Assembly: GCA_029959195.1 (NCBI GenBank)
Contig: CP114119.1
Span: 2,046,001 to 2,110,000 of the forward strand
Source: Dictyophora rubrovolvata
Taxonomy: Eukaryota > Basidiomycota > Agaricomycetes > Phallales > Phallaceae
Reading direction: 5' to 3'
DNA length: 64,000 bases
Numbering within the stretch: position 1 is the stretch's first letter; each line of letters begins with the position of its first letter. The notes under the pieces are model-generated. The model did not search any database. It worked only from the letters and a program-made list of their open reading frames with translations, and had not been told where the DNA came from. A program made the translations under genes and the position numbers. Positions 11,787-64,000 of this stretch are shown piece after piece.

Positions 11787-14243
11787 ATGCTCTCGAGCTT
11801 TTTCAGGTCCCAAGGATGCCTGCGTGTAACTAAACCACGATTTGCGCATCGTGAGATTTCCATTAACTCTCTTTCCAACTATACCTCCGATGAGCACGCA
11901 CTTGCCAAACACTTCGACGAATTCAAAAATCCAAACATTGCGTCTGATGGGCCACGTTTTTCGACTGGTTTATTTCACCACCCCCTTCTGCGGCATCATT
12001 CCCAGTTCAAAGATGCAGCATCGTTAACATTGTTTCGAGCCAATAAACTAGTGGACAGGATTTGCAATGCTCCGTCATCTCCCTCAGAGCTGCGCAAAGT
12101 CGTGAAAAACCTCGACAGGCTAAGCGATACATTATGCGGCATCGTAGACCTCGCTGAACTTGTGCGCAACGCGCATCCTGATCCAGAATGGGTTACAAGC
12201 GCAAATGAGGCGTATGAAATGCTCTGTGAGTTTATTGCTGTTTTGAATACGCATACCGGTCTTTCAGGGGTGCGTAATTGTTCGTTATTCACGTTGATAG
12301 GACTCGTCGCCTTATCATTTTTGATTTTTTTTATAATCAGACTCTAAAAATTGTCTTGTCGGATGAAGCCATTGTTAACAGTATGACCCAAGAAGAACAC
12401 CGGACTGCGCTCGGCTTTTGGCGGGATTTTGTCAGATCCGGGCTAGATCTTTCTCCGCAGAACAGAGAGAAGTTTGTAGCTCTATCATCTGAAATCATTT
12501 CTCTCGGAAGGACCTTTCTTGCCGAGGCAGGAAAACCTCGACCTCCTGCCGTACTACGACCGGGTGACTTTCAAGGAAACGATTCACAACTCTTTCGCCT
12601 GAAAATGAAGAGCCATAGAGAACCTGTGAAAGTTCACCCACATTCCCCCGAGGCTGAATTGGTGATGCAGAGTGCCAAAGAAGAACTTGCCAGAAGGAAG
12701 GTTTTCGTAGCTGGTAATTCAAGTTCGTCTAAGCAGCTAGAAAATCTGCATCGTTTGTTAAAGGCAAGAGCTGATCTAGCTCACATGAGCGGGAAAGAAA
12801 GCTTTGCACATATGGTTCTTGATGATAAAATGGCCAAATCTCCTGGTGAGGAAGAGTTTGGACTGGCTTTTTTAACGAGCTGAAGATTTCTATTTGTTAC
12901 AGAAAATGTTCGACGATTCCTCGACACCAGAATGGCCAATCTGAGACCACGGGTGAACGAAGTTGTCTCTTCCATGGCACGGCTAAAGAAGCGGACACTA
13001 GGTTTACTTGAAACACCCCCAATATTGGGATGGGATAGGGATACCTTCACACCGCAACTATCGGTTGCTCCACACATTCCCATGCCAATGCTGACGCCAG
13101 GCAATGTCTTTGTCGGATTATCTCGACTGTTTCGCAATCTCTACGGGATTACACTACGTCCTGCTGAGATCCTGCAAGGTGAAGCCTGGCACAAAGATGT
13201 CCGCAAACTTGAAGTCGTTCATGAGGATCAAGGTTTAATGGGCTGGATTTATATCGATCTATACCGTCGTTCGAACAAGGCTACGGGCTCTGCGCATTAC
13301 ACTGTTGTTTGTTCACGGAGGACTGACGAAGATGATGAGCACGGTGACTTTACTGAAGAGGAATTATCCAAGAGTGTAAATCTTGAGGCCTTGCGGGAGA
13401 TATTACCGTTCAATCGCTATAAGGTTAAAGGTCGTCCTGGAACATACCAACTTCCAAATGTGGTTTTACTGTTCGAAATTGGGCATCCTCTTACGGGGCG
13501 TGAGTATACCTTTCTGGGCTGGCATGAAGTTTTGACAGTATGTCATGAAATGGGTCATGCATTACATTGTGAGTGCAGTATGTTCTACCTCTGTTTCTTA
13601 CTGGACTGATTATGAATCAGCCATGTTGGCGCTGACCGAATACCACAACATTTCCGGAACTAGATGCGCCACGGACTTTGTCGAATTACCATCTATTCTC
13701 ATGGAATACTTCATGACATCTTCAGAAGTCTTGTCGAAGTTTGTTGAAAACTCCGATGGTCCCGTATATCCTTCGAATCCCGACACCAGCTTTGCCGTTC
13801 TTGATAGCCACACACAGGTTTTGCTTGCTTTGTTGGATCAGGCATATCACTCTGGTCTTGCGTTCGATTCCAAATTCGATTCTACAAAGACGTTCGCTGA
13901 GCTTCAGAATACCCATAGTCCGATACCATATGTTCCGGGGACATCCTGGCAGACCCAATTTGGACATCTGTTTACTTACGGTGCTACGTACTACTCATAC
14001 ATGCTTGACCGGGCTATAGCCAGTCGCATTTGGCAGCAGTTGTTTCAATCAAAACCACTTGACCGGGAAATGGGAGAAAAATACAAGCAGGAAGTCTTGA
14101 TCCACGGGGGAGGTCATGATCCATGGGAAATGATAGCCAACGTTTTGGATACTCCGGAACTGAAGTACGGAGATACAGAGGCAATGCAGAAAGTTGGAGA
14201 ATGGAGTGTCGCGGATGATGTCGCTACTACTGCTCGTTATTAA
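11787..14243 (+). CDS. MIP: Mitochondrial intermediate peptidase (MIP), M3 family metalloprotease
   Basis: Four exons (11787-12269, 12341-12845, 12903-13568, 13621-14243) encode 758 aa, typical for the family. The zinc-binding motif HEMGH lies just before the exon 3-4 junction, and splicing restores HEMGHALHS. The downstream third-ligand region and the [14 protein letters not shown] and [11 protein letters not shown] segments are typical of M3A oligopeptidases. The N-terminus is Arg/Ser-rich without early acidic residues, fitting a mitochondrial presequence. MIP removes an octapeptide from matrix proteins after the first processing step. In Agaricomycetes the gene is the classic neighbour of the MAT-A homeodomain genes, as here, with HD1 about 2.1 kb away and one F-box gene between. 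Confidence 0.95.
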
Positions 14244-14434
14244 TTCAACTGTTACAGCCCGTAAATATATACCCAAAATATGTATAATACATAAATGTTA
14301 CGCAACAACCAAAAAGGGGCTAGTTGGAAAAAGACAGTGATATATGGAGTACATTCTGGGTATGATTGATAGGGTTATACCCGCACAGAACGAAAGAGAC
14401 GCAGGGGATATAATTTATTCGTAAAGCGACTCGG

Positions 14435-16068
14435 TCAGTACTCGATGATCCATACACCCCGATCGGTGACTGCGCCTAGTATGCCTTCGGCATCGTCAAA
14501 ATCCAAACATTGCAACATGTTGAGATCAACGCCTTCAGGCGGTGCTAACTGCTTGACATGAAACATACCATTTTTATGGTCTGTGAATAAGCCCATAAGA
14601 CGCAATTGGGATTGACTGTCTTCTTCAATCCATATGGGAAAGGATCCATATCGGCCGAGACAGAAGGTGAATCGCACCCCATCCTCTCCAAACGGGACAA
14701 TAGCTGAGCGACTCATATACTTTGAACGAGGAAGAGGAGTGCGAGATGTTTCAGCTGACGACTTAGTTGTGTCAGGAGTAGGAAATGGTTCAAATGTCTG
14801 GACTTTGATAGTACGACGTGATTCGTCATCAGGCATGGCAGATATAGAGAATAATGATATTGGGCGGCTGGAAGCAGAACGAGGACAAGTGTTTCTCCAT
14901 ATCTTGGAGAAGCGCGTCTGGTACGCGTTATCTAAACGATCCCCTCTTGTAATCAAAGTAGGGGTAATCTTGACCTGAGGTAAGGGATCGGCACTCTCAG
15001 TAGAGAATAAGGTATCGGGGACGGGGAACACGATAGAAGCCGGACTGCCACCGCGCTCCTCGTGTATGATTATTTGGTCCCCCACAACTTGCAAAGTCGG
15101 CCAGGTCTCTAGCTAATGCAAATTTCAGTGGGATAAACTTTTGCCCAAAATTGAGGACGTACGGGTATGATAGATTGAGGCAAATGGATCACTGCTGCTG
15201 TAGCAGTCCTCCAATTTGCAATCCAAACGACGAACTGGCTTAAAGGTTTATCCTCGAGGATGCATGAATAAGCCGCCACTACATCTCCCTCTAAGGACAC
15301 AATCCACCATGGCTGGTCCCATGGAGAGGACATTATATGAACGAACTTTACACTCGGACCCGATTTAGCATCCTCAGCGACAACGATGTGCATAACGTGA
15401 ACCATATGGATGTCGGAAGTTTCCCTGGTCATTGAATCATGAGCGGAGACTTTTCAAAGATTGACCTACATTGACTTACATGTCTTCGCGTGATTGATCA
15501 ACAGAAATCGCCAAAACCATGCTTTTGCCATCTTCCACCACATCTACGTCAATACTATGTACCTTCTTGCCACCATGTTCACACTCCCCAACGTCTCGTC
15601 CGTCCCGTAAATCTCGACAAGTCAGCCTTCCTTTAATGGTAACAACCAGAAAGAATCTTCCACCGGGTAACAATCGCAACATCATAACGCTATCATCTTT
15701 TTCAGAAAGTTCTAGATATCGAGGCTGTTTGTGTGGGGAAGGACACTCGCTACGCCAGTTGTTTTCTAATCGGAGCCCACGTCGGCAGAATGATTGCAAT
15801 TCTTCAGTGGAGAAACCAATGCGAGGGCGGAAAGGAGGAAGAGCTAGGGGGATACGGTTACACAAGTTGAAGGTAAACATATACCAGATATGGCGGGAGT
15901 TCGTAAAGCTGTATATACGACGGCTGACCTAGAGTAGGGTAAGCCTGGCGGACACCAGGGTACGTAGTTACAAAGACTTGCCGTTTGCAAAGAGAAAACA
16001 TCTTCCATGTCCAAACGATAGCAAATTTCCAACAAAATGTCCTCGGGTAAATTGAGAAAGTTGCCCAT
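14435..16068 (-). CDS. F-box protein with beta-propeller-like C-terminal region
   Basis: Four exons (16068-15982, 15928-15480, 15424-15163, 15112-14435) give 491 aa. The N-terminus NLPEDILLEICYRLDMEDV is a clear F-box; after splicing it continues FSLQTVSRRIYSFTNSRHIW, completing the motif. The remainder has repeated beta-strand patterns and fits the propeller-like region common in Agaricomycete F-box proteins. It probably serves as a substrate adaptor of an SCF ubiquitin ligase. The first intron (15981-15929) must use a GC donor (ACG|GCAAGT ... CTCTAG): no GT donor gives the F-box consensus. It lies between MIP and the HD1 genes. Confidence 0.8.
15929..15981 (-). other. GC-AG intron in F-box gene
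   Basis: A 53-nt intron with donor GCAAGT and acceptor CTCTAG. Splicing here joins FSLQT to VSRRIYSF in frame, giving the F-box consensus. Reading straight through meets a stop before the rest of the protein. Confidence 0.7.
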
Positions 16069-16372
16069 GTTCGTTTCGAAAAATGACGAGCTGTCAGTAG
16101 ATACTTCTCAGTGCCATTATGGCAGCGATTGTGACATGTGACATGTAACATACATTTGATGGTCACCCCGCCTGCTTCTGGAACGAACTCCAAAAAATTT
16201 TGCCCCAACCAATTGTCAAAGTTTTTGGTATTTTGCGGGGGGCCTCTCATTCGATTGTCATGCATACTGAATTATATCAACAGGTAGGTAGTTTAAAACT
16301 GCTAAATTCTCTTCGAAATTTTACTTAACCAAATTGTGACGTTATGAATAATACAGGAATTCTAAATAAATA
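16069..16372. other. Intergenic between F-box gene and HD1a 3' end
   Basis: About 300 bp. It is the F-box gene's upstream region on one side and the 3' end of HD1a on the other. I see no further gene or repeat. Confidence 0.5.
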
Positions 16373-18336
16373 TCATGACCCTATTTCGCTGTCAAATACG
16401 CCTATAGAAGAACTCTCGGGACTGTTAATGAGATTTGTTGAACTCCATTCAGAAAGGAGGTTTCGCAGCTCTTCGGCAGCTTGGTCGAAGGATTCCGAGT
16501 CGGATGAGGACTCTGAGCCATAGAATTGTGTCTGACTGAGGAAGTCATTTGATGGTGGTGTGTCTCCGTCCCTTGCGATGTTCACAGAAGTATCTCCTGG
16601 TTCCTGACTCCCGCATCCCGGCTGTCGTACATCGCCTCCGCAGTGGACGTAATTGTCCGATATGCCTTTAATATACTCTTGCTGGTCGAACAAAGGTAAA
16701 GAGGCCACCTCAGGATCAGTCAAGATGGGTGGATTGTCGTTAAGATGTAACTCTTGCTCGTTTAATTCTGGAGACACCATGTTTTGTAGGAAAGTAAGAG
16801 ATAAATCGAGCTCCTCGTGGTGTGTGTTGTCCGACGCCTCGAACAATCCATTTCCAGATAACCCACTCATAAATGAAGCCCAGTCAAACACATTGACGTC
16901 TAATTCCCATGATTCGTCAAATGGTGATATATCGACCTTATGTTGATTTGGATACGCTGCTTCGACCTGGCCTAAAGGTATTTCCTGACCGCTTGTTGTT
17001 GGAAAGCTGCTTTCGCTTTCTGTATTTATCGGTAGTGGAGTGTTAGCTTCTAGAGTCGTCGTTTGAAGGCAGTGATTCAGCTTGGACTTTTTTGATGGTA
17101 TGAAGTCGTCTGTTTCGAATTGCGATCGAGAACGCTTGTTCGACTCGGAGAACATATAATTGGAAGGATCGGACTCGGTCCAATTTTCGAAAATTTCCGG
17201 GGAGGGTGTCATCGGCGAATCAAAAGGAGTCCCAAATGTGAAAAGGAGGTCCCATAATCCGAGAAGATTTGTCTCGGGAGATTCGAAAATATAAGTGTGA
17301 TCTAACTCGTTCTCGAACGCGTTGATGTCCCTAAGTTGTTTCTAGTCCTTAAGTATCCAACTAATACAAAGAATAGGACTAACCTAAGGCGTTTGATCCC
17401 CGCAGAGTGTCCACCGTTTTCTGGTCCCGAAGGGGGTAAAGAAAATATGCTTTCTGGTTCGGAAAGCCCCTCGCTCTGGGAAGTCGAGATTGTCGAAGTC
17501 CGAGAGACGCATCTATACCGACCACGGGCTTCTGCTTCCCAGGCGTGGTCCTCCTCCCTCCCTCTTTTCTTACCCCCGACCCGGATCGTGGCAACTTGAG
17601 ATGAAATTGTTGATTTAAGATTAGGGGCGTCGCCGGTCCAGGGGAGAGGACTTGAGTCCGATGTATTCGCATATGCTTGACTAGCGGAACGAAGGTTACC
17701 CTCTTCTTCTAAGGTGATTTCGTGTAGTAAGTTAGCAAGGTCAACCACCCAATCTCTGGGCTTGGATTGCTCTTCATCCCATGCTTTCACTTTAGTCTGC
17801 ATCGACAGGATATTTTCAACAACACCTTGAGGATCATGCTTTCTCTTCGTTCCTCCGTTAACAAGGACATGAGTACAGGCTTCGACCATGGCCTTCGTGT
17901 CCCCTTTATAGTATTCGTTGCAGATATCTATCCACCCACTTCTTCGGCGGGAGTTTGTGAACCAATTAGAAATGGCGGTGAGAGTAACTTGTGAGCATGA
18001 GGCCTCGTCAACAATGGCTAGCTTCTCTTGGAGTGACGGATAGGGATTATGTAGATGATAATAGAAAAAGGAATAACAGTATTGACCAACGATAGACAGT
18101 GGTTTGGTATGGGAAGAGTTTGATATCTCCCTTGTAATTTTTGGCGCAGTAAAAGGATATGGACTGGATTCTCGTGAACGGAAGGTATTATCAGGGGAAG
18201 CGAATGCTCTCGTTGAATCATCGTGACTGGAGAACGAGCTCGATTTTCGATATGGTAGTGGGTATAATTGGGGTTGAATATCAATCTGTAAATGTTTGTG
18301 AGACTCTCTTATGGCACGCTATTTTCTTCTCACCAT
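16373..18336 (-). CDS. HD1-type (TALE-like) homeodomain mating-type protein, copy a
   Basis: Three exons (18336-18334, 18285-17384, 17330-16373) give 620 aa. The homeodomain, about residues 55-120, has the HNPYPS loop of TALE-class domains and the recognition helix NWFTNSRRRSGW, typical of mushroom HD1 proteins. The domain continues into DICNEYYKGDT. Downstream are a WVVDLANLL segment shared with the second copy, basic clusters (KKRGREED; KKSKLN) that could be nuclear signals, and an acidic Ser-rich C-terminal region that could activate transcription. HD1 proteins act as heterodimers with HD2 proteins of a different allele. The start is inferred: ATG is followed at once by an intron, and an in-frame stop lies just upstream of the ATG. 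An additional upstream exon is not excluded. Confidence 0.85.
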
Positions 18337-19375
18337 TGTATATTCCTAGGGTGAAGGCTCAGATTGCAAGAAGTAAACAGGGTCAAGTCGCATAGAATTG
18401 TCGCAGGAAGGCTAGCTCGACACGATTCAAATGGTTAAGCAAGAAGGTATCAAAATATTGTAGAACAGAAATTTCACAGGGGATTTTCTAATGGAGGTGG
18501 TTAAATTGTGAGAGTTTGTGGTTTGAGAAAGAAAGGGAAAACAGAGTCCTCAGTTCACGGCCCTTCTATCCGATCACTAGAAATAAAACCTGGGCTGCGA
18601 TACCTCGGAACCAAATTTTCAGCTGAATATCTAAAGGAAAGAATGAACAATACACGAAAGATCGTGTTCGTATTTTCGGGTCATGGAACGGAATCAAAGT
18701 GTATGTTTTTGGTTAATTGATTTTCACATAGTACAGTTGTTAGAAAGCATGTCCATTCCACCAACAAAGTGTAATTCAATTTACAACCCATTAAATAATC
18801 CAACTTTGTTCATGAGTCGGAATCCGCTGAATATGTGGGGGTGTGGGAAGTAGATCCAGAAACTCAGAACAATGGAGGAGGACAATAGGGTACCCTCCAT
18901 TAAAGTTTGCTTCCGTTTCGCATATATCCCGAATTCGCAGAAACGGTACTTGTGATACACGATACAGCATAATGATACATAAAATCCTAGGATTTTATGT
19001 TTTATTTAATATGTTCACGAATTTGTAGTCAAAGTGATCAATCCAGTCATTAAGCTTTTCCAGGAAAAACTCATTAATATACTTAGTCATACTGTTGCCG
19101 ATTGTCTAGCGAGGTCCAAAATCCGAGATCAAGGCGACGCTGCTGCTTGTCTGTGTAGCTCAACATAAGCACCTGAATAACGAACGGGCAATTTAGTTTT
19201 TCCCCTAGTTTGTCAGAGTCACTAACCTATATCAAAATTCATTTTTTCTTTATGAGCTAGCCTTTCTTTTGCACGAGGTTTATGAAAAATAGGAAAATAT
19301 ATTGATGACAGGTATACTATGCGCTGAATTACAATGGAGTGATCTTACAAAATGAGGTTGATATCGTGTCATGGC
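18337..19375. other. Intergenic between the two HD1 genes
   Basis: About 1.04 kb of AT-rich sequence upstream of HD1a and downstream of HD1b. It holds small open frames only. No HD2-like segment (WFQNRR) is readable on either strand. It contains one perfect 24-bp palindrome, listed separately. Confidence 0.6.
18977..19000. repeat. Perfect 24-bp palindrome
   Basis: The half-site acataaaatcct is followed directly by its reverse complement with no spacer. It lies about 640 bp upstream of the HD1a start. It could be a dimeric protein-binding site or a chance AT-rich palindrome. Confidence 0.5.
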
Positions 19376-21296
19376 TTATAAATCCTCAGAAGGCTGATTA
19401 CTAATAAAAGAAAAGAACAAAAGCTCATCCAAGAATAAATTAGATTCGGGAACATCATTGACGTTGGAAGGAATTTCCGTCAATGGCTCTTGAATCAAGC
19501 TTTCGCTCTCTAGTGGTTCCACGGGCCCATGAAGTTCTGTAATTCCAAAATTACACCCTGCTGTTTCTTCAGGAAATGGCAATTGCAAAAAGTCATTTGC
19601 GATTTGCGCAGTGCACATGATCTCGCCATGAGATGGAAGTGCGCTGTCTTCATTTTCAGGACAAAAGAATCCCAGCAGATTTTCCCAATCAAACACCTCA
19701 AATTCGGTTTGCCCAATTTCAATGTTCGAGTCAGATGTGGCGGGTATGAGCGCAGTTCCGTCGAGAAGCTTGGTACCAGGCAAACAAACAGAAGGCGGTG
19801 TCGCTGAAATCTGCTGCAACAATTCCGAAATAGAGTCGAGTTCCTCGTTCGACATTTCCGGGACAGTAAAGTTCAACGGAGGTTGACTAATGCGTTGTGT
19901 CGAATATGTGTCTAGGTTATCGCTTGTGGATGCCTCGACGAATTGGAGTAAAGATATAATTATTGATTCCTCCGAATCAACAATATCGGACAAACGCCTT
20001 CGTTTCGTGGTGCACTCCTCGGTTTTGTTTTCGCTGGTGCCAGATCCGAAGTCGACATCAGTCCAAGTCCGCTTCTTCTGTAAAGACTGTGAGTCAATTG
20101 ATTGATCATTCGACGTCATCGCAGATTCGTAGTCTTGTAAGAAACCTAAATCTTGCAAGTCCCAAGGGAGACTAAAAGTGAATGAACCGCGCGTTGGAGT
20201 CATATCGCCACCGAAAACGGCCTGAGCAGATATATCCTCTTGCATAGATGGTATCTCAGGATTCGTGAGTGCTAATGGAAGGTCAGGTTCTGGAGAAGAG
20301 GTCTGAGACCTGAAAATATATCAGAAAATTTGAAAATATGAATAGACTAAAAATTCTTGAAGTACCTTTGTCGTTTAGCGGGACGTGTCAGATCAGAATC
20401 TTCATCCCCGTCGGTTGAATTGGACCAGCTTAAGGAGGGAGTGCGAGATAATTGAGAAGCGGAATCAGAGTCAGTTGGGTAAGAGGTCGTGGGATAGGAG
20501 TGTAAATTATCATCGTTCAGAACCCTGTCATCGTTGAAGTCTAGAGCATCGGCCTTGCGTTTCGAATTCGTCAGGCGGCTAGGGGATGGGTTCACGTTCG
20601 ATTGTATTGATGACGGTTCCTCAAGTACCGGAAAATTTGACGACTTTGTGCCTGTTAATATTTGATAGCCAATTTCTATGAGGGATTTATCTTCAAGTGA
20701 GTACGAATCAAGTAATTCGCATAATTCGACGACCCAAGGACTCGGATCTGTCTGAGATTTATGCCAGTTTTGCACCTTTCTCTGCATGGATAAGATAGCG
20801 TCGACAGCAGCCTGAGTTAGCGAAGGACGTGGAGCGGCGTTTGACATGTTTTGATCGAGTACCCATTCACAGGCGTTCACCATGCTTCTGGTATCTCCTT
20901 TAAAAAACTCGTTACATATGTCCATCCAGCCGCATCTTCTACGGGAATTGGTAAACCAATTCGAGACATTTGTGAGTGATATATCCTGTAACCCGCTCTC
21001 TTTCAAGAGGGCTTCCTTCTCCGCTAATGTGGGATACGGGTTGTGTAGATGGGAGAGGAAGAAAGGGTAACATATTCGGGCTATTGGAGAAAGGGGCTTG
21101 GAGCACGAGGGATGAATATTGTGGTATCCGTCTTCGAGAGCCTGATGATTCTGAATGGGTGATTTGTATTGCGGGTATCCAGCATCGAGGAAAGATGTTG
21201 AGGGTTGACGAAATTCCTGCAAAAATGATTTACTCGACTTCTGCAGAGAGGAGTCAGGCAAAATTAAAACCAGGTTAAAGTGAGGGGACATACCAT
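19376..21296 (-). CDS. HD1-type (TALE-like) homeodomain mating-type protein, copy b
   Basis: Three exons (21296-21294, 21240-20366, 20309-19376) give 603 aa. The homeodomain has the HNPYPT loop and helix NWFTNSRRRCGWMDICNE, nearly matching copy a. After it the two proteins share KGDTxxMVxAC, ILSMQxKVxxW and WVVxLxxLL, then diverge into acidic Ser/Thr-rich regions with basic patches (KRKADAL; TKRRRLSD). As in copy a, the first exon appears to be the ATG alone, followed by a phase-0 intron (21293-21241). The copies are tandem, same strand, about 1 kb apart, so they look like products of a duplication. Similarity outside the homeodomain block is low, which suggests an old duplication or fast divergence, as expected for mating-type genes. 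Confidence 0.85.
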
Positions 21297-22017
21297 GAAT
21301 GCGAGAGAACAAGGGATTTCAGCAGGTTGCGATATGTGGTAGTGGGGAACAGGGATTTTGACGTTGTGGAGGGTTCAAACAACGGTGTGGGATATAGTAT
21401 CAGTAGATAGATTCTGGGGGGGATTGTAATTCGGACGCGTAAAATAATAGGTTTGGGTAGTTTTGAGGATAAGAAAAGAAAGATAATGAACCCAGAATGC
21501 TCGTACTAGAGGTTAAGCGAGGAACAATAGAGATATCGCAACAACTTTAGGTTTGCTTCCGTCGAAATCCCAAAAAACGGACATTGCCTCCACATCGTGA
21601 TTGGATGGGTTAATTTTAGCGAGCTCCCTGCCGAAGGCGAATCTGAACCCGAGCAACTGGCTCCCATTGTTCGTCTTGCTCACAGACTCGACATTCAAAT
21701 ATTCAATTATTCAATCTGGTAATCCATATGCGTCAGTGGTAAAGAGGTAATCGCGACACATTCACTAATTGTCGTTCTACTGGGTTGCCTAAGTTGAATG
21801 CATAACAAATAGTTTAAAACGTTAGCCCCCCCGGTCCTCATATTGGAAGTTTGGAACAGCAACCAGGGCAAAATCGCGATATCACTGTGACGTAATTTAT
21901 ACTCGCCGACGTGTCAAAGCTTCATATTTTAGTTATCTCTAGCTAAAAAATAGGGATTCCAAGACAAGAATTAGGCATTCTATTGATAACCACGCAAAAC
22001 CTTGCAACATGGTTGTA

Positions 22018-22056
22018 TTCAACCAACATTCAACCAACATTCAACCAACATTCAAC
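22018..22056 (+). repeat. 11-bp tandem repeat, about 3.5 copies
   Basis: The unit ttcaaccaaca is repeated without change three times, followed by a partial copy. It is a simple minisatellite. Confidence 0.8.
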
Positions 22057-22101
22057 ACCATCACTCAACCATTTATATCAGAACCTCGTTTAGTGCCGAT
22101 T

Positions 22102-22316
22102 TACACGCCCAGCGAGAAATAGCACCATTAATAGGACCTATGGATTGGGCTCTGAATCGCCACCAATTTGGTACCATTTCAGGACTGACTTCATTTCGTT
22201 TTGGCTAGCTGAGACTAGCCGAGACTAACCGATGCGATGACATAAGACATTGGTACTGAAATTCGATACATAATCCATAGGTCCCATTAATGGCGACATT
22301 TCTCGCTGGGCGTGTA
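22102..22316. mobile_element. MITE-like element with 45-bp terminal inverted repeats
   Basis: The arm at 22102-22146 (beginning tacacgcccagcgagaaat) is matched by the reverse complement of 22272-22316, with about four mismatches in 45. The internal 125 bp is non-coding. Size and structure fit a miniature inverted-repeat transposable element. I could not identify a clear target-site duplication, and a foldback element is an alternative. Confidence 0.5.
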
Positions 22317-23343
22317 GGTTATAATATTGACTGGACGTGTGTGACTTACAAAACACGCACATGCACATATTCTTGACGAATTCCCGACAAGTAATCTAAT
22401 TGTTATTAAAAGACTGAGGCTGCCGGAAAACTAAGAAAGTTTCTCAACGTCCGCTGAGTTCGCGCACGCTGAACTATCAGAACGGACAACGGTATCAGGC
22501 CGAAACACGCTTCCTTAATATCACCAATAACAATTACTGCAGCAATAACGAGCCTAATACAGACCGAAAACAGAGCGTACTGAGTTGACAGGTCGAGGTT
22601 GAATAATACTTTTGGTGGACAAGGATGATTTACTTGAGTAACCAAGTCCGAGTCCGTGTTCCTTCGTCGGCATAGGTGTCCTAGTCCTCACGCACGCGTT
22701 GTATGAATTATTTAGCTTCAGTGTACAATACATGTCTAGCTTGTGATAGCCTGATTGATAACGAATTGATTTACCGCTACTATTTGAGAGGCTACGTATG
22801 TAGGGTGCCCGTGCCATACTATGAGCTCGCATGTGATAGCCTGTGATATGATTTCAAAGTGTGTTTTAAGCTCAGGAGTAGCAGATGAAGCAATTTTCAG
22901 AAACGTGAGCAATCCAAGCGCATCGTGAAAATCGACTTGAATTCAATCATATTTGTGACGATGAAATAGGTGTTCAACTGAGTGAACTGTAGGTACTGAG
23001 TGAACTGTTCGAATTTGAGCGCCAAAACAAAAATTCTCAGGCTTCGGAGCCTTCCACAAAAAAACCGAATGGTACGATCGCTTACTTACTTGTCGTTCCA
23101 TGTTTTTTTAAAAAAACTTTTGAAGGACTCCAATTCATCCATCTCCACTTTCACCTCAACTTCAGCTTTCTCATTCTTCGTCCGGGTAAGTTCCCGTTTC
23201 CTGTTTTTATCATAAGGATGCAAACTTTCTTCCATGACGTGCCTTGCACACTGTATGTACTCCTTCGTGGAGTCCATTCAAGTCACTGATTCAACACGCT
23301 CTTTCTTCAATGTTCATTTACTAATTCACGATACGCCATTAGA

Positions 23344-24736: not shown

Positions 24737-26085
24737 TTTTTTAAGCTCGTTCTTTTTTTTTATTGTTGCGTTTTTTTGATACCCCATACACGTAATTTCG
24801 ACATATTTTTGCGTATGCAATGTATTTCACTATCCTTATCACTAAAAACAACACTACCATTTTTTGTGCCAATATGTCGGTGAAGAGGCTAGCGTGTGGA
24901 GCAAGTTTGTAAAATATATATTGGAGAAGATTCGAAAGAAACATGTTTTTTTCCAACGGTCCCACTCAGTTCTCAGTTCTGCTCCGTTAAAGAGTCCGCA
25001 TATATAGAGGAAGGACAGGGCACTCTTCTTCTACATCTCACGACTCGGGTAGTGCAATGTTCTCGCCAAACAAAAAAAGAACAACTTCGTCTGTAAAGAT
25101 GAAATCTTGAAAATAATACAACCATCAATGGAGTAGATCATATTTCTGCCATTGTAATCAAACTCCTGGATCATGCCGTTGGTGCAAGTGCGGATCGACC
25201 AGTACAACGTGATGGTTACTGATCTCGAGGAAAGGCATTGGCTATGAGAATCCAGGGTAGCCACAACAACAACAGTTATTATTATTACACCTGGTCAGTG
25301 TATTCCTAATATGCTCGCGGCCGGTGAACCAGGTTTTGATAGATTTTCAGTGTGGATGTGAGAATAAATAAGCCATATTTAGAAGATTTTAGACGAAGTG
25401 ATACATAGAGTTCGTAGTTTCTTGGCTCCCCCCCCCCTAAAAAGCAGACTTGGATTTGAGTGCATTGCAAGAAGCTGAGGGGCTGCCACAGGCTCCATAG
25501 GCGAGCCAGTGCGGGTATTGCCGATTGAAGCACTGGCTCTACGTCGAACTCCGAGTCGTCAATCATTTAATCATTAATCATTGTTCAACTGTGTACACGC
25601 TCAAGCTCCTCTTTTCTTTCTCGCGCTATACGGACTCGGCACAGCCATTGCACGGTACATTAGTATACTACCAGCGGGTCGACAAAACTTGTTCGCGTCT
25701 AGAATCCACCGATCGCCCTCTTTTTTTGTCGAAAAAACAAAAAACAAAACCTCCGCAACATCAATGTTTATGATCCTCAATTCAGCTCAGATCTCAATAA
25801 CAGTCCACACAGATACAGTCTTAGCATTTCCCACACTGTCAAAAAGAAGAAAGCTGGCATGGAACATATTAGTTAGCCGGTTTTGATTCCTTCAAGTTGA
25901 GCTATCGTCTCTTCGAATGGCAGTACACATTCCTAGCCCTGTTATCTGGTCGCACGACATGGCAACCACTTTGTTTTTTTTTTAATTATACGTTTCGCTC
26001 GTTCAATCCTTATAAAGGCAGGATGGTCCCTCCCCAGTTGATCGTCTATCATGCTTAATGACTTTAGAGTTGACTGGCGATTGAG
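24737..26085. other. Upstream region of DUF6533 copy 1
   Basis: About 1.35 kb. From about 25395 onward it matches, in inverted orientation, the upstream region of copy 2 (to about 33480). Examples are the shared taaaaagc-agacttgg and gagccagtgcgggtattgcc segments. The part before 25395 is T-rich with no gene visible. Confidence 0.6.
26011..26016 (+). promoter_or_regulatory. TATA box of DUF6533 copy 1
   Basis: TATAAA, 70 bp upstream of the ATG at 26086, inside a segment (CCTTATAAAGGCAGG) that is kept in the inverted copy at the same distance. Confidence 0.5.
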
Positions 26086-28092
26086 ATGTTCTCAGTCGTT
26101 GATAATATTTTAATTACCGAGACATATAGAGTAAGTTCCTCTCCCGCTCTGGATCTCCCTTCTCTTGACGGTGTGTGTGTGTGTGTACTATTTTCTAGTT
26201 TTGCAATGGTGAGTGAATAACCGCCAAATATTTCCTGGTCAAGCGCTAACACTCAAAAAAGTCGCGAGCTTCGCTATTGCAGTAAGTTATTTTACATAGA
26301 TCCGATTTCGTTACAACTGGCATTCCTTCCGACGCAGGTTACCGACTACTTTCTCTGCCTTCCCCAAGAAATAGAGCTCATTTGGCCTACACGATGGAGT
26401 ACAGGGAAGGTATTATACATCGCGACTCGATATTCCGTGTTCATGGACAGCATCTTACTTTTGTATCGTACGTACATATTCAGCGTCGATACTGTTGTTG
26501 CTAATGTGCATATGTAGTCGCCTCCCCGAATCACTCAGTTTTAGCTTGTCAACGTGTTTTCACGGCATCTGCTTGTATGTATGCTCCTTTCCCCACCTTT
26601 TTTTTTCCTGTCTCAATGAATCCACGTTACAAGGGCTCATCATCATCGGAATGATCATATCAGAAAGTATTATCATTTTCTTAGTCTCTGAGCCAACTCA
26701 ATATTAAGCTAACATTCTTCACACTGCATAAGCTGTTCTGGTCTTCCGAACATGGGCAGTCTGGGAACGAGACCTCAAGTTATTTATCATTCTACTCATC
26801 GTTCTACTGAGCGGCACAATTCTCGGTTTCGTATTCGCGCGCACCAGTCTGTCTCCTATGGAATGTACGTATACCCTCCAGGTTTTTCTATCGACTATTT
26901 CACTAGTGCTGACCTTTTTTTTTCCGTTTTATTAATATTCACAGTCGGTGCGGCTGCAGAAGGATACCCACCCGGATGCTGGCTCGTCGTGTTTGTGCAT
27001 CCCATTATTATATTAGGCTATAGCATGATTCTCTGTTTTGAAATCAGTAAGTTTTAAGTTCCGATCTCTTTCCGTGTTGAAGAACGTTTTATTTACTTAA
27101 ACAGTTATCCTTCTGCTCACGCTGTACAAGTGCCGACAAGCTAGTCCGTCATTAGACTATTATCTTCCAGAACAAACATTAACCCCTTCTTTTTTTGACC
27201 AGTTATATCGAAAAGATCAAAACTACTCATAACATTACATAGAGATGGTAATTATTCAAACAAAAAAGGCTTATAGGTCGCTGCTAACGGGAAGTTGTCT
27301 AGCTATTTTGTATTGCTTTTTCATCGCTGGTACGACGACACCTTATACATTTCAATATCCACGAGCTTGAATCTCATTTTCCAAATCAAGTCTGGTCACT
27401 AGCCAATATCGTAAATCAAGTCATACCAGTGCGTAGTTATATGTACCTCGAACAACCATCTTTTTGAAGATTTTGACAACTACCAGTCGGCACATGCACC
27501 ATCATTCGAAGAGTAAGTCCCCTCCCTCCGAGTTCTTTCATAAAAAAAAAGAAAAAAAAAACTTCTCAACCCCCGATCAACCTTTTTTAAAATTTTTATT
27601 TATTTTAGACTTCAACGCGTTATTCACTCGGTGTTGACTGCTCGAATTCTACTCAACATCCGAGAAGCCGTTCGCGCGAGTGAAATAAAATTGACTCAGA
27701 GCACATTATCTTGGGAAGCTGTCGATACCAATGCCAATGCCAGTACAGAGCAAGAACGAAACGAAAGTGGTGCTGTACCAGGTCCAGGAAGAAGATTATC
27801 CGCTATAAGCCGATCGAGGAGAAGATCGAGGTCAATTCGGAGGCAACAGTGGAATGTCAACGACTCGTCTCGAAATGGTGGTAGTAGTGGGATTGGGAGA
27901 TATTTAAGTGCGATTTTGGATTTTGACGAGGAGAGTTGGACGCATGATGAGGAGAGTGCGAGGTGGCTTGAGAATGAGGATCAGGAACAGCATATTGAGA
28001 TGACTCCTTTGTCGCGTGCGAGGAGTCCCAGTCCTAGTCAGGCTCCGGATATGCCGGGACCGTCACGGTTGACAGATGTTCAGGTAGTTTGA
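26086..28092 (+). CDS. DUF6533-type multi-pass membrane protein, copy 1
   Basis: About ten exons can be joined in frame. Key segments are TDYFLCLPQEIELIWPTRWS, GKVLYIATRYSVF, VFRTWAVWER, EGYPPGCWLV and HSVLTARILLNIREAV. This order is the hallmark of the 7-TM DUF6533 family, greatly expanded in Agaricomycetes and of unknown function. Six or seven hydrophobic segments are visible. The C-terminal exon is cytosolic-looking, Arg/Ser-rich (RSRRRSRSIRRQQW) then acidic. Intron 1 contains a (GT)n run. The acceptor of intron 2 is ambiguous (GTCAAG or AAAAAAG, both in frame). The start at 26086 lies 70 bp from a TATA box. Whether it is a receptor is not known. Confidence 0.8.
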
Positions 28093-29917: not shown

Positions 29918-31886
29918 TCAAACTACCTGAACATCCGGCGTATCCGGAGCCTCAGGCTGACTCCTCGCACGCGACAAAGCAACCATCTCCATATGCTGCT
30001 CCTGCTCCTCATTCTCAAGCCATCTCGCACTCTCCTCATCATGCGCCCAACTCTCCTCATCCAAATCCAAAATCGCACTTAAATATCTCCCAACCGGGCC
30101 ACTACCACCACTCCGAGACGCTGAGGAATCATTGACATTCCACTGTTGACTCCGAATTGACATTGACCTCGATCTTGATCTTCTTCTCCTCAATGATCTT
30201 CTTCCTGGACCTGGTACAGCACTACTTCCGTTTCGTTCTTGCTCTGTACCGGAATTGGCATTGGCAGGTTCCCAAGATAATGTACTCTGAGCCACTTTCA
30301 TTTCACTCGCGCGAACAGCTTCTCGGAGGCTGAGTAGAATTCGAGCAGTCAACACTGAGTGAATAACGCGTTGCAGTCTAGAAAGAAAAGGTTGGTTGAG
30401 GGTTGAAAAGATATTTTCCTTGTAATTCGGACAGAGGGACTTACTCTTCGAATGATGGTGCATTTGCCGACTGACAGTTGTCAAAATTTTAAAGATGGTT
30501 GTTCGAGGTACATAAATATAACTACGCACTGGTATGACCTGATTTATGATATTGGCTAGTGACCAGACTTGATTTGAAAAATGAAACTTCAAGCTCGTGA
30601 ATGATGAAGTTAGATATGTAGGTGTCGTACCAGCGATGAAAAAGCAATACAGAATGGCTAGATAAACTACCGGTTAGCAGCGACCTGTAAGTCTTTTTTG
30701 TTTGAACAATTACCATCTCTATGCAATGTTATGAGTAGTTTTGATCTTTTTGATTTGACTGGCCAAAAAAAGAAAAGGGGGTTAGTGTTTGTTGTCCGAG
30801 TTCTGGAAGATTTATTAATGACGAACTAGCTTGTCGGCACTTGTAAAGCGTGAGCACAAGGATAACTGTTAAACAAACAAAACGTTCTTCGACATGGAAA
30901 GAGATTGGAAACTCGACGCTTACTGATTTCAAAACAGAGAATTATGATATAGTCGAATATAATAATGGGATTCAAAAACTCGACGAGCCAACATCCAGGT
31001 GGGTATCCTTCTGTAGTTGTACCGACTACAAAAAGCGGGAAAAAAAAAGGCCAACATTTAGTGAAATAAATGAATTGATAGACAAAGCCTATCAATGGAG
31101 GGCATCGTATGTACATACATTCAACACGAGACAGACTGATGTGCGCAAATACGAGAGAAAAAACCGTACCGCCCAGTAGAATGGTGAGTAGAATGATAAA
31201 TAACTTGCGGTTTCGTTCCCAGACGGCCCATGTTCGGAAGACCAGAACAGCTTATGCAGTGTGAAGAATATTAGCTATTATTGAGTTGGCCCAGAGACTA
31301 AAGAAAATGATAATTACTTTCTGATATGATCATTCCGATGATGGTGAGCCCTTGTAATGTGAATTCATTGAGACGGGAAAAAAAAGGGGGGGCAAAGGAG
31401 CATACATACAAGCGGATGCCGTGAAAACACGTTGACAAGTTGGAACTGAGTGATTCGGGGAGGCGACTACATACATACATTAGCAACGGCAGTATCAACG
31501 CTGAATATGTACGTACGATACAAAAGTAAGATGCTGTCCGTGAACACGGAATATCGAGTCGCGATGTATAATACCTTCCCTGTACTCCATCGTGTAGGCC
31601 AAATGAGCTCTATTTCTTGGGGAAGACAGAGAAAGTAGTCGGTAACCTGCGTCGGAAGGAATGCTAGTTGTAACGAAATCGGATCTATGTAAAATAACTT
31701 ACTGCAATAGCAAAGCTCGCGACTTTTTTGAGTGTTAGCGTTTGACCAGGAAATATGTAGTGTTTATCCACTCACCATTGCAAAACTACACATACACACG
31801 ATGTCAAAAGAAGAGAGGATTTAGAGCGGGGCGGGGCTCACTCTGTATGTCTCGCTAATTAAAATGATATCAACGACTGAGAACAT
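29918..31886 (-). CDS. DUF6533-type multi-pass membrane protein, copy 2
   Basis: Near-identical inverted paralogue of copy 1, with the same exon layout from ATG at 31886 (MFSVVDIILISETYR) to the stop at 29918. Conserved segments are all present (TRWSTGKVLYIATRYS, VFRTWAVWERN, EGYPPGCWLVEF, HSVLTARILLSLREAV). The C-terminal exon is Arg/Ser-rich then acidic, shorter by a few residues than copy 1. At intron 2 the acceptor used in copy 1 (GTCAAG) reads GTCAAA here. The alternative AAAAAAG site stays in frame, so the gene may still be functional with six residues fewer. A TATA box is kept upstream. Role unknown, as for the family. Confidence 0.77.
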
Positions 31887-33525
31887 CCCAATCGCTAGTC
31901 AACGCCCAAGCATAATAGACTATTCAAATCAACGAGAGGGGGGTGGGGGAACATCCTGCCTTTATAAGGATTGAACCAGCCAAACGTATAATTAACAAAA
32001 AAAGGTGCGCCATGTCATGCGACCAGGGGTAGAAACGTGTGCTACTAGAGAGACGATAGCTCAACTTGAATGAATTGAATCCGGCTAACTAATATGTTAA
32101 GTTCCATGGCAGCTTTTTTTTTTGACCTTGCCACTAGTGACAGTGTGGGAAATGCTAGGACTGAAAAAGTGAAGAAGGGGTGGAAAAAAAGCCGTTCATG
32201 AGTTTATATAGCCTTTTTAAAACATCCCATAAGGAGATAAAGGGGAGTTGCACGAGCAAGTTAAAAAAGAAGGTTTTGAGCGCTGAACGCGTTGGTGAAT
32301 TTTTGGAAGCAAGTTGGCCAAGCCCTGCCATACGCACTGCTATTGTTGGAATGGAAGACGCTGCAGTGGCTGGCGCGTAGAAGCGTTCCGTTCGAATTTG
32401 AAAGGGACCGGGGGGGTCAGTTTATCAATGAAGAGTGGGTTATTATAGTGAGCTTACAATTTGCTCAATAATATAGACAATGGATCCCGAGCGCTGAATT
32501 TGAAAAGAAAATGGAGATTCCTAATGAGGGGTGCCATATTCTATAAATACATGTGTGCAAAACGGTGAGAATTCCGCTCGAAGCTGAACTTGTAACAGAA
32601 GAACTTCAAGTTACGTCGCCCGGCATTCGTTGAAATTAAATACATGGCATAGCTGATAACAACTCCAACTCAATGGTTGCAGCCATCTGTAGTGAATTGA
32701 TTCATTTTGAACAGGCCCTGGCACGGCTGGTAGTCAACGGAATATGCGTAGCACCGTCAACATGAGAATACTATAACCTTAATTAATTAAAAGGAAAATC
32801 CATTATAGTCGGCCTGAGAGGAGCCAATGATCATTGATTATGGTGGCCCGTTTCAACTATAAGAAGCCGCGAAGCTGACGATCGACGTCTGACTGGAATT
32901 TGAAAATTTGATCTTTCGGTATGGGAAACAAAAAGTTAAGCCGAGCCAGCCAGTTTTACAGTACGTGAATGAATGGATGGTTTGTTATTGAGATTTGAGC
33001 TGAATTGAGGCAGATGCCGCGAAGGCTTTTTTCTTTTCAGTTTCGAAAAAGGAGGGCGATCGGTGGATCCGAGACGCGAACAAATTTTGTCAACTTCAAT
33101 GCCAGTAGTATCATCAATGTATTTACTTCAAGTTTGGAATCTTGATCTTGATATAACCTTGAGAAGACGGAATGGATTTGATTTTAAATCTTGAAGAAGC
33201 GTGAACTGGGCGTGCAGTGCTTATACTGAGTCCGTGCGCGAGAAAGAAAAAGAGGAACTTGAGCGTGTACACAGTAACGAACAAATGAATATTACAGAGT
33301 CCGGCGAGTCCGAGTCCGCGCTTCTTGAACGTTCAACTTGAACCGGCAATACCCGCACTGGCTCGTGTATGGCGCGTCATCAAGTCGGCTTTTTAAGGGA
33401 GACAGTCAATGACAATGGCAATGGCATGTGATGCACGCCACGACAGTGAGCCAAGGAATTACGAATTCACGCATTGATCTCGGAAGATCTTTTTGACACG
33501 ATGATTTTCATTCCATTTATTATTA
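31887..33525. other. Upstream region of DUF6533 copy 2 / 3' flank of copy 3
   Basis: About 1.6 kb without a gene I can support. A short open frame at 32180-32380 (+) has no recognisable features. Confidence 0.5.
31961..31966 (-). promoter_or_regulatory. TATA box of DUF6533 copy 2
   Basis: TATAAA on the minus strand, 75 bp upstream of the ATG at 31886, in the same sequence context as at copy 1. Confidence 0.5.
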
Positions 33526-53720: not shown

Positions 53721-54022
53721 CTTAAGCGCGCTGTAATCTGCACTCGCTTGCTTAACGACTAGTGCACGTTTGAATAATTTTAGGGGATGTCTTCGATTTG
53801 GTTTGCATGTAGATAGAAATATATTGCATAAGATATAAGGATACATGCGGAATATGATCAACGATAGAGCGGAAACCATAGCATGATGGGAGCCGGAAGT
53901 TGTAAATGAGATTGAAACCACGAGAGAACATAAGATTAGCAAAGCGAAAACATGAAAGTAATTGTGGGTGCCAATCTCTACTAAGCTTCAATGCCTGTAG
54001 GGAGTGAAGCAATATAACCAAC

Positions 54023-55589: not shown

Positions 55590-56029
55590 CCTCTACGACG
55601 CTGTGAGAAGAGTAGCCGTTAAAGCGGGATCGTCGATGTGAATGGATATACAGTCGAACCTCTTATAATCCATACCACTTACAACCCATAACCCCAAAAA
55701 CCCATACATTATGCATCCCGAGTTACGTGGGGATTTCGCAACTATAACCCATAAACCCGCGGTAATCCATAACCCATGCTTCTGGCCTAAGATGACCTTC
55801 CTAATTCGGTATGTAACAGAGCTAAATTTCCCAAATAATTTGACCGCGACTGAATCTCTCGAATCCGGTTGGGAAGCTCTATGCAAGATATTCTGATTTT
55901 AAGACCATGGTTCTACTTACCCAAAGACCATGTTCAGCCGACTCGTGCGTGTGAGGGCTAACGCTAGACAACTAGAGACATGACATGCATAACAGACCCG
56001 AGCTCATGATCTTCCGCAGGCTAAGGGAC

Positions 56030-56756: not shown

Positions 56757-57381
56757 AATGTCTTAAACGCGCTGTCCTCAGGAATCTTGTGATGTAATCT
56801 GCACTTGCTTCCTTAACGACTAGTGCACGTTTAAATGGTTTAGACCAGGACGGGATGTCTTTGCTTTGGTTTGTATGTAGATCGAATTATATTGCGTAAG
56901 GTATAAGGATGCATGTGGAATATAATGAACGATAGGGCAGAAACCATAGCATGATGAGATTGAAACTTCAAGAGAACACAAATAACGATGTGATTAGCAA
57001 AGCGAAAACATGAAAGCAATTGTAGCGCATCGGCATTGGGCGAACCCGAAATTCTAGTAGCATTTCGCATTTCTGAGGCGGAGGTAGAGGTGGAGAAGAT
57101 TGAATGAGTTGGACCAGTGAAAAACTCCCAACGAACAGGTTCAAGTCAACAAGTCGCTTAGACGAGTGTTTGAGATGGGTATGGAAGAAAATCATGGGGG
57201 AACGTTCATCGACAGTTTGAGCCAATCGCTTGCATTGACAGCTATGGTCTACTTGTTGTTGTCCATGTATCATCCAAACTGGGTAAGCTGAGGCATTTTC
57301 CCTAGTTAAAGGTGAGTGCCAATCTCCCTTATAAACTGAATTAGCTTCAATGCTTGGAGGAAGTGAAGCAATATAACCAAC

Positions 57382-58916: not shown

Positions 58917-59069
58917 CCTCTACAACGCTGTGAGAAGAGTAGCCGTCAAAGAGCAATCGTCGATGTGAATTGGTACAATATACTTGTTTGTAAATATTTG
59001 GCGTCCAGGATTGTACATAATTTGGCACGTTTTTTTAATCATTCCTATCAATCCCCGTAATCAGCTGAC

Positions 59070-61270: not shown

Positions 61271-62486
61271 TCTAGAACTTTTATTCCTATCAATCCTCGT
61301 AAGTAAACGACCGACAGCATCCATTACAGTGTCCGAGTTTACAGGTCTGTTCTTTTTTTGCGCGAGTTACAATCGACCACTGTCTTCTTTGTTAATATCT
61401 GACGACGAGCAAAGGCTACTAACGCATTGATTGGGCACCACAAACGAAACATTACTACGGATCCATGCAATTACTGAGTTAATAATCACGTTTTATGGTA
61501 TTACAAACCGCGCGACTGAATCTCTCGAATCCAATTGGCGCAGATGGCGCAAAGGGATAGTCCTAGTGACAGAATAAACTAGTGCTAACTTTATTATGTA
61601 GTCTTATATTAATACATCACATATGAAATAATGATACACGCTGGGGGTATAAGGTATATATGGAAAACAATAAATCAGTAATATCCATGGCTTGGACAAA
61701 ACGTTAGAAAGCGGGTTGGGTATTTATAAGGAATTGTCTGAGAGATGCAATGAACAGTGATGTAGATAGCAAAGCGAAAACAGGCTGGAAAGCATCAGCA
61801 CTATGTTTCACAATTAAACAGCAACACCCACCAAAAATAAGGGGGCTAACTCTTCTTCTACTCCCTCTCGAGCGCAGCCTTCTTTTCTTTTAGTTCAGAA
61901 CGTTTATATTCTTTCCATAGAGCTTTCTCAACAAGTCAAATCTTGGTAAGATCGATAATCGATGCATTTGAATCGGTGGACAGCAGTCGGCAAGACGTCC
62001 TGCGTTTCTGGAGTAGCTGGGACTGACGCCGAAGTCCATGTTGGCGAAGTTTTGAATGGAGCATAAACTTGAAGCATCCATTGGATTTGTGTTTCGGCGT
62101 TCAGTAATTCATGATTTGCATAAACAGTTCGAACGACCGATAGCACCGACGTCGTTAATCCAATTGACCTGCGATTTCAAAAGATGTTTTGCGTGACTGA
62201 GCCTTGAAATTGAAAATCTACCCTCTCCATCAACAGACAGTTTCGAATTGTAACGTGTAAGAGTCATAACTATACATAGTTTATACATTGTTTTCAAAAA
62301 TAAAATACATATCTTTATAATCCAACATACACGAGATTGAGATGCGAGACCTTGGTATGGTATAATGCTTGAAGATCGGATATTGAAGCCAACGAAAATG
62401 ATAAGTCACCCAGCCAAAAATGGAAAGGATAATGATGAATAAGGTAAATAGGAAATTGAGTTGCCGGTCATTTGGGTTGGCTGCAA
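61206..62486. other. Intergenic, unit D to HD2 3' end
   Basis: About 1.28 kb, AT-rich. It holds decayed flank sequence of the duplicated unit to about 61800. Beyond that I see only small open frames (for example 62281-62499 on the minus strand, with one hydrophobic stretch), which I cannot support as genes. Confidence 0.5.
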
Positions 62487-64000
62487 TTACGGACTCCATA
62501 GACCTAGATCCAGTCCGATGGTGGATGCTTCTCCATAGTGATTGAGCGCGTCCACTCCACTTTTGTTTCCCCGAGGGATGTGAAGGAACGTTTCAGGCAC
62601 CGGACGTTCGAGCAAGCACCGATCCTCAGCCTCGTGTTTGCCATACTCAAAGGTGGAAAAATTGGGTGAAAGCGGGAGTGGAAGACAAATCTCAATCGAA
62701 TCAGGAGAAGAGGCGACAGTTGAGTATGAGGAGGCGTGAGATGAAGGCGATAGTGGTGGTTCATCCGTCGATTCGGAGAGGCAAGTGAGAGATGGAGATG
62801 GGTGTGACATAGGAGAGAGAAATATGCCGGTTCGAATACGTTTCGGAAGGGATTTCATAGGCCTCGTGCTGGGAGATATGGACGGTGTTATATTTATTGA
62901 CTCCAAATTTGATGATATGTCGCCGACTCGGAGATCGCGTTCACTAGCTCTGGGACGTTTTAATCCTCGGCGTCTTGGCCATAAGGAAGAATCGAGTTGG
63001 ACGTCAAAAGGATCAGAAGTTGGTGCAGATGGTACATAGGGAGCAGGAAAGGGTGAATGAGAACTGTTTATTAGGGTATCAGTGATTGCTTCCGACGAAG
63101 CATCGTCACTCGAGGAACTCTCGGTCTTCATTATCTAAGAGACACATTGAGAACGTTGATATAGACGTTGCAAACACGTGTACAACCACTAACCTTTTCA
63201 TAGTTGACGTCGTCATCATGACTGTAGTCAAAGGTGAGGTCGATGATGTCTGCCGAGTCTAGCGGTCGATCGACAGTTAAGACGTTTTCCTTGTCAATGT
63301 CATCTTCGTGATAAAATGGCCATTTGACCATCGGGCTTGTACATCCAAGGGCTTGGATTTCATCCCTTGAAGTCTGCAATATTGATGCACGAGAGTGCTT
63401 ACCGCTTCGACAGCGGCGATTTTGGAACTAACGTGTACGGTCAACATCAATAAATGAATAAAAATTATTTCACTTGCCCAAACGGAAATTTGACGATACG
63501 ACATCCCAGATACACGTGCTAGGTGCTTCTTATCTTCACGACTTGGAAATCGATCTTTTGAAAAGGCAAATTCAAACAAAGGAAGATATTCCTACTCCAA
63601 TTGAATAATTCGAACGACTCCCAAGTATACAGCACGTACCGATTTAAACCTTTTTCTGCTTTTCATATCACCGGTGCTGCTTCCCAGTGATACAACTGAT
63701 GACGACCTGTGTGACGCGGCGTGGCGTGAGGCAAGCTCACAAGCTTCTTGTGACCAGACAGAGAGCAGTGAAAGATATTTCTGCTTGTAGGTCTCGTATA
63801 AATCGTTCTGAAGAGTAGCAAAGGATTCTGCATTCCCCCATGGAGAGAGTTTCGACAGTAATTCAGAAATTGTTCCTGTCGAGTGAGCTTTTAATTCAAT
63901 GGCTCGACGAATGTACACTGCCGAAACGCGTTCAGCGATTTTCTCTGGAATGCTTTGGCTTATAAGAGCTTGCGTCAGCGGCTCTGGAAGGGGGAACAAA
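62487..64000 (-). CDS. HD2-type homeodomain mating-type protein, 5' end cut by window
   Basis: Five exons are readable (64000-63640, 63591-63478, 63427-63403, 63351-63194, 63134-62487), about 434 aa. The frame is open to the window edge, so the N-terminus is missing. After a helical N-terminal region, a non-TALE homeodomain reads YLPLFEFAFSKDRFPSRED, then SGMSYRQISVWFQNRRCRS. This is the classical WFQNRR helix of mushroom HD2 proteins. A basic cluster (RRRGLKRPRAS; KSLPKRIRTG) and a Ser/Pro-rich region follow. HD2 pairs with HD1 from another allele. The codon TGG of WFQ is followed by an intron with a GC donor (GCAAGT), and splicing is needed to make WFQNRR. It is the only HD2 visible; a divergent HD1 partner could lie beyond the edge. 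Confidence 0.85.
63428..63477 (-). other. GC-AG intron inside the HD2 recognition helix
   Basis: Donor TGG|GCAAGT, acceptor ACGTTAG, 50 nt. It separates the invariant Trp from Phe-Gln-Asn of WFQNRR. The flanking introns of the gene have normal GT donors. Confidence 0.75.

Follow-up and report, generated by a model that had tools for sequence, protein, structure and literature searches.

How is the homeodomain (HD) mating-type locus, MAT-A, of Dictyophora rubrovolvata organized, and which of its genes are likely to choose mating partners? We analyzed a window of 64,000 nucleotides (contig CP114119.1, hereafter C3; C3:2046001-2110000), in which a first-pass annotation had recognized MIP (mitochondrial intermediate peptidase), two HD1-type homeodomain genes on the same strand with no HD2 gene beside them, and an HD2-type gene with a WFQNRR motif at the far edge, about 41 kb away. 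The assembly comprises 28.24 Mb in 11 contigs, and the whole locus lies within one contig of 3.1 Mb; positions above 64000 are window-equivalent and lie beyond the window end. Our analysis makes it probable that the homeodomain locus is split into two subloci, accompanied by a separate pheromone-receptor locus, that the distal sublocus is the likely compatibility switch, and that this sublocus holds an inverted, head-to-head pair of duplicate HD1 genes with two different N-terminal specificities.

Results

Organization of the homeodomain locus

HD1 (TALE) and HD2 homeodomain genes, both expected of an agaricomycete MAT-A locus, are present and linked to MIP. The open frames of MIP span 11787-14243 on the plus strand; its frame 12884-13609 matches Peptidase_M3 (E = 3.4e-35) and returns one match in the assembly. 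By family and place, this M3 peptidase is taken to be MIP rather than another member of the family. Two homeodomain genes follow on the minus strand, HD1-1 (16373-18336, 620 aa) and HD1-2 (19376-21296, 603 aa), with Homeobox_KN matches at 17941 and 20935, respectively, and tblastn found no trace of an HD2 gene near them in C3:2030001-2160000 and C3:1990001-2220000. HD2 itself (62487-64077, minus strand; window part 62487-64000) encodes 477 aa, and its stop (62487) is 41.2 kb from the start of HD1-2 (21296). All gene models are splice-site readings of genomic DNA, and the introns of HD1b (see below) and HD1-1 were set by hand.

The observations of the first-pass annotation were thus borne out, as was its proposal that MAT-A is rearranged and has homeodomain genes at two sites, but the simple 41-kb separation of HD1 from HD2 that it put forward does not hold. 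The start codon of HD2 lies at window-equivalent 64077, 77 bp past the window edge, and farther on are two full-length HD1 genes, HD1a (window-equivalent 65207-67611, L020 6207-8611; minus strand, 784 aa) and HD1b (window-equivalent 67769-70185, L021 3769-6185; plus strand, 789 aa), both with a Homeobox_KN match. With these genes 1.1 and 3.7 kb away, HD2 does not have to act as the distant partner of the HD1 genes beside MIP, and we dropped this idea. The two subloci hence consist of MIP with the intact HD1-1 and HD1-2 genes, and of HD2, HD1a, and HD1b in a cluster 48 kb from MIP, HD1-1 and HD1-2 lying between. The alternative offered before, a complete HD1-HD2 set straddling base 64,000, came closest to this arrangement, except that an adjacent divergent pair is absent: HD2 and its nearest HD1 gene, HD1a, are both on the minus strand, and the divergent HD1 gene anticipated beyond the window, HD1b, comes second, beyond HD1a.

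Homeobox_KN has at least five matches in the assembly (a lower bound, with nine candidates scored), four of them at the present locus, of which two are just past the window end. A motif scan of C3:2030001-2160000 gave 14 lines, namely one HD2 homeodomain (63416-63430), four HD1 homeodomains, and nine chance-like hits. No further homeodomain gene or remnant was detected at E ≤0.05 in C3:1990001-2220000 by a search with low-complexity masking, which did not return the remnant at 61586-62047 described below and could miss others of similar length. Homeodomain matches elsewhere on C3 (2808-2811 kb) were set aside; they are unmatched by the HD2 query, and there is no motif line for the loci L008 and L011.

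The spliced HD2 protein, read from 64077 to 62487, matches Homeodomain (E = 1.2e-12) and, more weakly, Homeobox_KN (E = 1.1e-6). Its homeodomain (residues 139-191) is interrupted by introns 1 and 2, after residues 146 and 184, as described for Flammulina and Coprinopsis in the available part of PMC3140503; intron 2 is of the GC-AG type and splits W from FQNRR in the WFQNRR motif. Searching the assembly with HD2 returned the gene itself, a 35% identical homeodomain on contig C2 (E = 0.001), and one match at E = 1. The gene is on the same strand as HD1a and 1.1 kb from its end. Downstream of HD2 is a remnant (61586-62047, minus strand) that corresponds to the 3′ end of another HD1 gene; its part 61853-62047 has an alignment score of 102, compared with at most 28 in 200 shuffles.

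The head-to-head HD1 pair

HD1a and HD1b face each other head to head, their start codons 157 bp apart, in an inverted repeat with arms at 65190-67191 and 68189-70193 (85% match). Identical residues amount to 35 of 127 aligned positions in the N-terminal region, 194 of 198 across the homeodomain stretch, and 343 of 432 beyond it. At the DNA level, a 452-bp tract (67071-66620 versus 68309-68760) contains a single mismatch, compared with 212 differences in 1957 ungapped columns for the arms overall, tract included. The longest exact run between the arms is 331 bp, and the maximum in 2000 shuffles was 115 bp. Sixteen of the mismatches fall in the first 120 arm columns, where the homeodomain region starts, which places the beginning of the tract within that region. 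Nei-Gojobori proportions of synonymous differences are 0.79 for the N-terminal part, 0.13 for the homeodomain stretch (edges included), and 0.27 for the C-terminal part; the low silent-site change in the homeodomain stretch argues against protein constraint alone. The simplest reading of this pattern would be an old divergence of the N-termini, a shared C-terminal part, and a recent gene conversion over the DNA-binding region.

The HD1 genes beside MIP

The MIP-side HD1 genes had been suggested to be remnants of other pairs that lost their HD2 partners. They do not appear decayed: both HD1-1 (620 aa) and HD1-2 (603 aa) have intact frames and share their gene structure, with an intron directly after the ATG. 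It is their N-terminal region that is short. The KN homeodomain occupies residues 75-116 in HD1-1 and 62-103 in HD1-2, compared with 153-194 in HD1a and HD1b, and the homeodomain region is preceded by 62 and 49 residues, respectively, versus 140 in HD1a/HD1b (residues 63 and 50 align with the start of the HD1a homeodomain region). These short N-termini have no clear similarity to the N-terminal region of HD1a/HD1b. HD1a and HD1b queries gave no match upstream of 18234 in HD1-1 and of 21258 in HD1-2, and inspection by eye of a three-frame reading of 17900-19400 and 20900-22700 revealed no upstream exons that would encode longer N-termini.

The short intron at the start of both genes has, as judged by eye, a good donor, branch, and acceptor site. 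It is needed in the HD1-1 model because the frame contains no in-frame ATG before the homeodomain; HD1-2 has an in-frame ATG without that intron, and therefore its start could differ. HD1-1 and HD1-2 are ∼47% identical around the homeodomain and, as read from the sequences, keep the basic stretches and the C-terminal motif VFDW common to HD1a and HD1b, although the automatic alignment put VFDW of HD1-2 in different columns. The region used for partner choice appears to be missing or replaced in HD1-1 and HD1-2. Lacking the usual N-terminal region, the two proteins probably have no part in the usual partner choice, or choose partners differently.

Flanking regions and the receptor locus

F-box-like and membrane-protein-like genes are mirrored about the HD2/HD1a/HD1b cluster. 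To its left are an F-box-like array (minus strand) and a membrane-protein-like gene (plus strand) in 40246-61208, and to its right these orientations are reversed. Such mirroring is compatible with an inversion that broke in or close to the cluster, as modelled for Flammulina, but is no proof of it; F-box genes change from minus to plus a second time further out, at 144-163 kb. The array had been described as a decaying repeat, but four of its units keep open frames of 181-188 aa (the F-box match, E = 0.0045, is under the Pfam cut-off). The family has 24 matches in the genome at E 1e-5; of the 10 best, 9 are within C3:2088-2208 kb and 1 is on contig C11. Members around the homeodomain locus are found in the window (40246-61208), in L021/L022, and in C3:2190-2208 kb.

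An intact 359-aa Tc1/mariner-like transposase frame is located 0.6 kb beyond HD1b (window-equivalent 70769-71848, L021 6769-7848). Of its 33 matches in the genome, 9 (itself included) have ≥97% identity over nearly the full length. Further out, ∼21 kb from HD1b, we located a frame of the Sla2/talin type with an I/LWEQ domain (L023 7484-8791, E = 3.8e-61). SLA2 flanks mating-type loci in many ascomycetes, and the presence of such a gene near HD1b is probably a coincidence. A PF01501 gene, which we take to be glycogenin-like, was found at C3:749 kb (E = 1.9e-18), 1.3 Mb from MIP. In Trichaptum, a glycogenin-like gene is located beside bfg at one end of the homeodomain locus, according to the available text of PMC8970355.

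Searches for STE3 pheromone receptors returned 17 exon matches, all on contig C11, which group into four STE3-like genes within 10 kb (C11:864346-874372) and a fifth ∼140 kb away (1012125-1013087). With the receptors on C11 and the homeodomain locus on C3, a two-locus system with unlinked mating loci is likely if contigs stand for chromosomes. One near-full-length copy of the Tc1/mariner-like element is ∼3.4 kb from an STE3 receptor on C11.

Genes around MIP and between the subloci

A nicotianamine synthase-family gene (PF03059, E = 1.9e-48) is found at 3766-4725, 7 kb before MIP. Between MIP and HD1-1 are two open frames on the minus strand (14435-15928), which the first-pass annotation had overlooked and which we read as one unnamed gene; the one frame searched, 14435-15112, has no Pfam match. 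Among the genes previously named between HD1-2 and HD2, dipeptidyl peptidase III (M49) is well supported (E = 4.1e-44). The gene named ERG6 could be placed in the methyltransferase family (E = 1.5e-8), and of five frames searched at 25-32 kb, where a DUF6533 array had been proposed, one does match DUF6533 (E = 9.4e-12). The matches to a rhamnosidase (E = 0.004) and to RING (E = 0.00096) are, like that to F-box, under the Pfam cut-offs. The same region contains an inverted repeat of ∼2.2 kb (25838-28057 versus 29935-32126, 83% identical) with a DUF6533-type gene in its left arm.

Discussion

In Coprinopsis, the dikaryon programme is driven by a complex in which HD1 and HD2 proteins from different nuclei pair via their N-termini; the HD1-HD2 pairing was reportedly described by Banham and colleagues in 1995. 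In D. rubrovolvata, HD2, HD1a, and HD1b have N-termini of this kind and are the likely switch. HD2 from one nucleus would join an HD1 protein of different specificity from the partner nucleus through the variable N-termini, and the complex would then turn on the dikaryon programme. Gene content, order, strands, intact frames, and the conversion-like tract are observed, and the assignment of genes to mating and their mode of action are inferred from them. Gene conversion across the HD1a/HD1b inverted repeat probably keeps the DNA-binding core the same while the N-terminal specificities stay different, and the MIP-side HD1 genes have kept the homeodomain and the C-terminal half without the usual N-terminal region. 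More speculatively, the head-to-head repeat could be a cassette of two specificities served by a shared promoter stretch, in which ectopic conversion between the arms, with one edge in the homeodomain region, homogenizes the core and spares the N-termini, and the MIP-side HD1 genes, freed from partner choice, could have taken on another regulatory job. A related pattern, termed divergence-homogenization, is said to have been described by Badrane and May in 1999 for b1 of Coprinopsis cinerea, with variable N-terminal and homogenized C-terminal parts among alleles, whereas here the pattern is seen between two copies in one haplotype.

Split subloci, a lone HD1 gene on the MIP side, and head-to-head HD1 genes with one HD2 have each been published (PMC3140503, PMC6388666, PMC8305134, PMC12387193, PMC10739230; the comparisons below refer to the available portions of the papers cited). 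Among the open-licence papers listed, supplements aside, we recognized no report of the present combination or of a conversion tract between head-to-head HD1 genes, which is a weak negative. In Flammulina velutipes, HD-a is located beside MIP and HD-b 73 kb away, the two being split by two inversions (PMC3140503); HD-a contains a lone HD2 or a lone HD1 gene, the latter without a predicted dimerization motif and yet active in crosses (PMC6388666). D. rubrovolvata likewise has two subloci tens of kb apart, with MIP at one of them and one homeodomain type only on the MIP side, where the HD1 proteins have no recognized dimerization motif. Its MIP side differs in having two HD1 genes rather than one homeodomain gene, and its distal side in having HD2 with the head-to-head HD1a/HD1b genes rather than the divergent HD1/HD2 pair of HD-b. 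In Agaricus bisporus var. burnettii JB137-S8, the order is a lone HD1 gene near mip1, ∼35 kb of mobile-element debris, and then a complete HD1-HD2 pair (PMC8305134). There too a lone HD1 beside mip1 is followed by tens of kb of extra DNA and further homeodomain genes, but a short HD2 remnant adjoins that HD1 on the 5′ side, whereas we find two lone HD1 genes without an HD2 trace, ordinary genes in place of mobile-element debris, and a duplicated HD1 in place of the complete pair.

The distal cluster resembles matA of Pleurotus ostreatus. In strain PC15, two oppositely oriented hd1 genes share a promoter region (PMC10739230), an arrangement matched here by two head-to-head HD1 genes with a shared intergenic region of 157 bp and a single HD2. 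Strain PC80 carries three hd1 genes, two of them head to head, and one hd2 (PMC12387193), but its matA, next to mip and beta-fg, extends over 11.6 kb, whereas 48 kb, including HD1-1 and HD1-2, separate the present cluster from MIP. The available text on P. ostreatus matA contains no mention of a conversion tract such as that of HD1a/HD1b. Hypsizygus marmoreus has up to three HD1 and two HD2 genes, single ones being lost in many haplotypes (PMC8686365), in one Mip-HDs-Bfg locus rather than in two distant subloci, and inversions and losses of bHD2 have been described in Trichaptum (PMC8970355).

These systems bear on other explanations of the locus. The MIP-side sublocus might also be active in mating, other strains carrying HD2 or other HD1 genes there and both sites working side by side like HD-a and HD-b of Flammulina. 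We regard this as possible but doubtful. Crosses of Flammulina that differ only at the lone MIP-side HD1 gene do form clamps (PMC6388666), and HD1-1 and HD1-2 have intact frames, a shared structure, and 47% identity around the homeodomain. Yet the KN homeodomain of the Flammulina protein is at residues 154-193, 79-92 residues further in than in HD1-1/HD1-2, so that even less of the N-terminus is left here. It is unlikely that HD1-1 and HD1-2 are dead leftovers of lost HD1-HD2 pairs. Their short N-termini and missing HD2 partners would be accounted for, and loss of homeodomain genes from pairs has been published for Agaricus and Hypsizygus (PMC8305134, PMC8686365, as available in part); but both frames exceed 600 codons, have plausible introns, and retain the same ATG-intron start although the genes are old paralogues.

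A self-compatible locus, in which HD1a or HD1b fits its own HD2 and a single haploid switches the pathway on, seems improbable to us. Two very different HD1 N-termini beside one HD2 in one haplotype do look as if an HD1 of foreign specificity had been taken in, and the available part of PMC10598064 considers duplication and divergence of mating-type genes in one genome a possible route to haploid fruiting. However, P. ostreatus, described as a tetrapolar species, has homokaryons with a single hd2 and two (PC15) or three (PC80) hd1 genes, so additional HD1 copies are not in themselves enough for self-compatibility. We consider an assembly artefact, a contig put together from pieces of two nuclear haplotypes, very unlikely. 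HD1a and HD1b do differ as two alleles would, and the layout was read from the assembled sequence; against this, their opposite orientation, a 1-kb center outside the repeat, and arms that are 85% identical are not made by a simple join of haplotypes, MIP has one match in the assembly, and Pleurotus shows the same head-to-head layout.

Several points weigh against a split locus with a distal compatibility switch. Polymorphism and mating function are predicted from one haplotype, and the gene models from splice sites rather than transcripts. HD2 and the nearest HD1 gene are on the same strand, unlike in the classic divergent pair. The site-shuffling test applied to the conversion-like tract takes no account of constraint that varies along the gene. 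HD1-1 and HD1-2 have diverged to saturation at synonymous sites, and selection on these genes is therefore not measurable. The flanking gene beta-fg was not found, but the search, with a 20-aa motif from PMC8305134, came back empty and is uninformative.

We nevertheless favor a homeodomain locus in two subloci, with HD2, HD1a, and HD1b as the likely switch. It adds a layout in which the homeodomain mating-type locus is broken into distant parts, and provides a clear case, within a single haplotype, of recognition ends that differ and a DNA-binding core that is homogenized. It thereby relates to the long-standing question of how many mating specificities arise and are maintained.

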